Below, in pieces: positions 7,372 to 7,602 of a stretch of DNA of 21,557 nucleotides. Position 1 is the stretch's first letter, and each line of letters starts with the position of its first letter. The translations under genes and the position numbers were made by a program. The notes under the pieces are model-generated. The model worked only from the letters and a program-made list of their open reading frames with translations, searched no databases and was not told the origin of the DNA. Source of the stretch: a virus. The stretch covers positions 1 through 21,557 of IMG/VR virus record IMGVR_UViG_3300027739_000030. One strand, 5' to 3'.

Positions 7372-7602
7372 TTAGGCCTTCCAAGTCAGGGCCTTGACGG
7401 CCCACATCTGTGCGGTCTGCGCTTCGGTGATGGCGAGGCTCGCCATCCGCATGACCTCGGCATCGTCCGACGCACACCGGAGTGCGTGCATCTGGTCGAT
7501 GGCATCTGCAAACATTTTCTTGCAGCTGGTCACAGCGTCGTCACCACTGGGGTTGAACGCGAGGCCAACTGCCCGCTGGCCGAAGCTAGGGGTATTCTGC
7601 AT
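7372..7602 (-). CDS. Small helical protein resembling the Acb2/Tad1 hairpin family
   Basis: 76 aa. The ATG at 7602 follows AAGGAGCAGACT, a strong Shine-Dalgarno, so an upstream start at 7662 (inside the next gene) is rejected. The pattern is FNPSG (16-20), a helix with paired lysines (K28, K29), and a C-terminal helix with LAITEAQTAQMWAVKALT (56-73). Small phage proteins of this shape, with 'FNPS...' and an end like '..AxMWAVKAxT', belong, as far as I recall, to the Acb2/Tad1 hairpin group, whose characterised members sequester cyclic nucleotide signals of CBASS and Thoeris defence. If so, it would act in the host cytoplasm as an anti-defence sponge. Key ligand residues cannot be verified by eye. 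Alternative: a conserved phage helical protein with no sponge activity. Confidence 0.55.
   Translation of the reverse strand: MQNTPSFGQRAVGLAFNPSGDDAVTSCKKMFADAIDQMHALRCASDDAEVMRMASLAITEAQTAQMWAVKALTWKA

Follow-up and report, generated by a model that had tools for sequence, protein, structure and literature searches.

A putative cyclic-oligonucleotide sponge of the Acb2 family, with altered ligand residues, in a viral replication operon

We found that a 76-residue protein encoded in a 21,557-base IMG/VR virus record (IMGVR_UViG_3300027739_000030, the window, which is probably a fragment) belongs to the Acb2 family, as sequence profiles and a predicted structure support, and it probably functions as a hexameric sponge for cyclic oligonucleotides. 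Hexamers of Acb2 hold cyclic dinucleotides and cyclic trinucleotides at sites independent of each other, which keeps CBASS effectors inactive (PMC12043709). The domain family is already known, and close relatives of the protein are already labelled Acb2/Tad1 hairpin proteins in databases; what is new is the anatomy of the branch defined by FNP...AQTAQMWAVKAxTW, which occurs in phages and in bacterial contigs of Proteobacteria, Bacteroidota and Saccharibacteria, and its altered pocket.

The gene is read on the minus strand (7602-7372), from an ATG at 7602 preceded within a few bases by an AAGGAG Shine-Dalgarno sequence to a stop at 7374-7372, and its 76-aa product is MQNTPSFGQRAVGLAFNPSGDDAVTSCKKMFADAIDQMHALRCASDDAEVMRMASLAITEAQTAQMWAVKALTWKA. 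A plus-strand reading of the same interval was discarded because conservation falls on the minus strand. Relatives are encoded in at least 257 viral contigs, and purifying selection acts on the gene (median dN/dS 0.15; 0.12-0.32 between the window gene and its relatives); with a Pfam match above the curated cut-off, this indicates that the ORF is a real conserved gene, far beyond chance.

The sponge candidate lies, as the initial annotation stated, in the replication operon and next to the SSB candidate: the operon is co-directional and tightly packed on the minus strand (SNF2 helicase, Gam-like/DUF7307-like protein, sponge candidate, SSB candidate, HTH protein and primase, in that order; Table 1), with spacings of 10 nt on the upstream side of the sponge candidate (stop codon to ATG) and 4 nt on its downstream side. 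The operator/promoter site also proposed upstream coincides with a perfect palindrome (TTGACA C TGTCAA, minus-strand reading), at which no sigma-70 promoter was called. A copy with one mismatch is found at 15473-15485, and both may be operator sites; in a control, 1 of 100 shuffles gave three matches at ≤2 mismatches. A strong site resembling an intrinsic terminator, 3' of the primase (3084-3059, minus strand; 10 pairs, 9 of them G-C, and a T run) is likely the operon end. The Gam-like protein scores just below the cut-off of the DUF7307 (Pam3 gp33-like) model, and the Gam-like/SSB-like/primase module is kept as far as phage Rollin. Elsewhere, the window encodes a PolA-type DNA polymerase of 605 aa (12841-14658), the last 79 residues of which align in the ~841-aa homologue of locus L044 after a gap of ~280 residues, a length difference that suggests either an insertion (intein or extra domain) in L044 or a deletion in the window.

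Table 1. Operon members and features of the sponge candidate, in window coordinates.
Feature	Position	Strand	Evidence or remark
SNF2 helicase	9618-8080	-	Operon member
Perfect palindrome TTGACAGTGTCAA, possible operator, upstream of the Gam-like gene	8064-8076	.	
Gam-like/DUF7307-like protein, 135 aa, upstream of the sponge candidate	7613-8020	-	PF23984 25.8 bits (cut-off 27); Mu Gam 7e-4
Acb2/Tad1-hairpin family protein, sponge candidate, 76 aa	7372-7602	-	PF24729, relatives, AF2, hhalign
Residues 7-12, short N-terminal helix, F/Y7 and G8 conserved	7567-7584	-	AF2 and conservation
G13-L14, aligned to PaP2 G10-Y11 and T4 G7-Y8; ligand-stacking Tyr replaced by Leu	7561-7566	-	Alignment A2
K28, invariant, aligned to PaP2 K26 and T4 K23	7519-7521	-	Alignment A2 and conservation
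Second long helix, R52 to W74, RMASLAITEAQTAQMWAVKALTW, block common to Acb2	7381-7449	-	hhalign (residues 46-73) and conservation
SSB candidate, downstream	6420-7367	-	phrog_27714 7.6e-27, unknown function; kept in L002, L044 and Rollin
HTH protein	6420-6178	-	Operon member
Primase	6137-3306	-	Operon member

The initial annotation had grouped the protein with Acb2/Tad1 and proposed an HMM search against the hairpin family, which bore the grouping out: the protein scores 36.5 bits against the Pfam model PF24729 (Acb2/Tad1 hairpin; curated cut-off 27 bits), and all 44 relatives in alignment A1 and the solved Acb2 of Pseudomonas phage PaP2 (gp26) exceed the cut-off as well. A profile of characterised Acb2 proteins (PaP2 p26 and T4 Vs.4), built from 47 PaP2-type and 20 T4-type sequences, matched the subfamily profile over residues 46-73 with 96% probability and a score of 48.7 in hhalign, compared with a maximum of 18.8 over 100 column-shuffled profiles and 14.2 for the reversed profile; the T4-type family alone reached a probability of 10%. 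When 177,635 PDB sequences were searched with the subfamily profile, T4 Vs.4 (7uq2) came top, at an E-value (0.14) that is not significant alone. The single sequence had no match in the PDB by phmmer, and none in NCBIfam or PADLOC. A Pfam match to PMEI, a plant inhibitor (0.003), was below cut-off and present in only 4 of 44 relatives, and was dismissed as a helical chance match.

The predicted structure points the same way. The AlphaFold (AF2) model (pLDDT 95.6) has helices at residues 7-11, 22-44 and 48-73, that is, a short N-terminal helix followed by two long helices, the topology of the Acb2 protomer, published as a short helix plus a long helical hairpin (PMC12043709, PMC10419184). The best two BFVD matches in Foldseek are both Acb2/Tad1 hairpin proteins (E 6.5e-4 and 1.6e-3), while nothing in the PDB fell below 0.001 (7uq2 ranked 20th, with E 4.8 and TM 0.32), a comparison in which two-helix hairpins discriminate poorly; a control model of PaP2 Acb2, folded without an alignment, had a pLDDT of 70.6 and was too poor to calibrate Foldseek. 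That the protein is instead the Thoeris anti-defence protein Tad1 is very improbable. PF24729 does cover the hairpin that Acb2 and Tad1 have in common, but in Tad1 the two long helices are preceded by an N-terminal antiparallel beta-sheet (PMC12043709), and the AF2 model of the 76-aa protein contains no strand, so the predicted topology already contradicts a Tad1 assignment; the window profile, moreover, matches the Acb2 families. The protein is for this reason Acb2-like rather than Tad1-like: it lacks the beta-sheet domain of Tad1.

Residue conservation was counted over 64 aligned relatives, and positions were compared with those of studied proteins in an alignment of the window, PaP2 and T4 families (alignment A2), where identity to characterised Acb2 is ~14-22%. 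Among the features on which the initial annotation rested, FNPSG (residues 16-20) and the end MWAVKALTWKA (residues 66-76) are present and fall in conserved regions: F and P of the FNP motif are found in 64/64 relatives and N in 63/64, and the block AQTAQMWAVKA-x-TW is essentially invariant. The lysine pair is indeed inside helix 2 (K28-K29), but conservation is limited to K28 (64/64), K29 not being conserved. G13 (64/64 in the branch), K28 and M66 are invariant across all three families, and the family positions G13, K28, R52, T59 and K70 are all retained, the last three aligning with PaP2 R67, T74 and R85. PaP2 K26 presumably contacts dinucleotides, and we take R67 to be at the cA3 site. The T59 match weighs little because T68, to which it aligns in T4 Acb2, is poorly conserved among T4-type relatives; the T68M substitution lowers binding by T4 Acb2 (PMC12657230).

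The dinucleotide pocket appears different. T4 Acb2 needs Y8 for dinucleotide binding, which the Y8A substitution disrupts, and its F82 makes a stacking contact with the ligand (PMC12657218, PMC12657230). Neither stacking aromatic is present in the corresponding columns of the window protein: L14 replaces the tyrosine (T4 Y8, PaP2 Y11; Leu in 57/64 relatives, the remainder Ile, Val or Met) and T73, found in 64/64 of the subfamily, aligns with T4 Phe82. PaP2 itself has Ala at the F82 column, and the stacking aromatics do not define the PF24729 family. The branch has its own invariant positions (F/Y7-G8, F16-N17-P18 and W67/W74). As judged from these alignments, the branch is strongly constrained yet different at the dinucleotide pocket, and the exact ligand is not readable from family membership since the two aromatics that grip dinucleotides in T4 Acb2 are replaced.

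Compared protein by protein, PaP2 Acb2 (p26; PDB 8h2j, 8h2x, 8h39 and the 8ixz series) has in common with the window protein the PF24729 domain, the short helix and long hairpin, the glycine, the lysine in the first long helix, and the Arg, Thr, Gln, Met and basic residue of the block (RMASLAITEAQTAQMWAVKALT in the 76-aa protein). It differs in overall sequence (~21% identity), in its GY motif (GL in the window protein), in its end (AQPxSF instead of TW) and in a longer hairpin loop, whereas FNP and W67 are invariant in the window branch. T4 Acb2 (Vs.4, PDB 7uq2), the best PDB profile match, has the same invariant glycine and lysine positions and a similar end (MWAxRAV, against MWAVKAL in the window), but is only ~20% identical and has Y8 and F82 where the window protein has L14 and T73. 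Far closer are proteins of Providencia phage PS3, Pasteurella phage Pmp11, Enterobacter phage EcP1 and phage DSL-LC05 (44-66% identical), which belong to the same subfamily, are labelled hypothetical in the phage records and lie in differing genomic neighbourhoods.

By analogy with Acb2, we infer the hexamer, the ligand binding and the defence target of the protein as follows. Protomers, each a short N-terminal helix plus a long hairpin, would assemble into a homohexamer, and pockets between protomers would bind the cyclic oligonucleotides that CBASS-type enzymes produce in the course of infection. The bound molecules would be held uncut, so that effectors would stay off and the phage could complete replication. 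Expression in the replication operon, directly after the Gam-like gene, would mean early timing.

The same operon position could suggest that this Acb2-fold protein is a small recombination or replication accessory, acting with the Gam-like protein and the SSB and having no nucleotide-signal function, and recombination and replication families do recur among the 69 neighbour proteins of relatives (PD-(D/E)XK exonuclease, DUF2800, SSB, ERF, YqaJ, Enc34 ssDNA-binding and Gp157). We consider this unlikely. The genomic setting varies: of 113 loci, just three (L002, L044 and L046) have the neighbourhood of the window, and other window-type copies adjoin terminase genes (DSL-LC05, Pmp11), belong to the early region of the N4-like phage EcP1, or occur in bacterial contigs from several phyla (Dyadobacter, Polaromonas, Avibacterium, Saccharibacteria and others). 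Pseudomonas phage Rollin has a syntenic module, with helicase, Gam-like, SSB-like and primase genes homologous to those of the window by BLAST and an HTH-like gene matched by position and a weak Pfam match, but no sponge-candidate gene between the Gam-like and SSB-like genes; its Acb2, of PaP2 type, is encoded far from the module (OR577172.1 1455-1745, locus L238). The distribution of the gene is accessory (mobile), and with the Rollin module lacking it and a PaP2-type Acb2 located elsewhere, this is what would be expected of an accessory anti-defence gene and not of a fixed replisome part. The conserved block, finally, coincides with that of the signal-binding family. PF24729 occurs as one copy per genome in 30/30 contigs, a count that is uninformative on exclusion because the family is rare. 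Of 15 bacterial genomes carrying a window-type copy, 5 had a CD-NTase (SMODS) match over the cut-off, a number that, without a baseline, carries no weight.

Within the sponge function itself, the protein may well bind a range of ligands different from those of T4 and PaP2 Acb2. The protein could be a sponge for a signal other than CBASS cyclic dinucleotides (cyclic trinucleotides of the cA3 type only, a gcADPR-type Thoeris signal, or the signal of a decoy system), which is a sub-case of the Acb2 sponge and not exclusive of it, and which we regard as possible without favouring it. Consistent with this, both stacking aromatics are lost in an otherwise strongly conserved family, R52, T59 and K70 are conserved next to new invariant positions, and the dinucleotide and trinucleotide sites of Acb2 are independent (PMC12043709). 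On the other hand, the alignment is least reliable at the N-terminus, and some other aromatic residue (F7, F16 or W74) may stand in for the stacking Tyr. Tentatively, a large and widespread Acb2 branch might have abandoned the classical dinucleotide pocket and sequester a different immune signal, which could be trinucleotides alone or a molecule so far unconnected with Acb2.

Acb2 has been described as relatively rare among phage proteins (PMC11722364); the window branch contributes several hundred further copies in phages and prophages, most of them unannotated and with a wide host range. Its altered ligand residues offer a direct and inexpensive way to test the evolution of sponge specificity, also under the pressure of Panoptes, by which phages are punished if their sponge takes up the Panoptes decoy signal (PMC12657218). 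Two database records deserve mention. The PaP2-type Acb2 of Rollin carries the label 'NAD/FAD-utilizing enzyme', a misannotation. In Providencia phage PSTCR8lys (locus L236, 3998-4218), the match to the window-type Acb2 is split in two and the CDS annotated there spans 150 bp only, as if the gene had been broken by a frameshift, a situation to be compared with that of phages that lose acb2 when under pressure from Panoptes.
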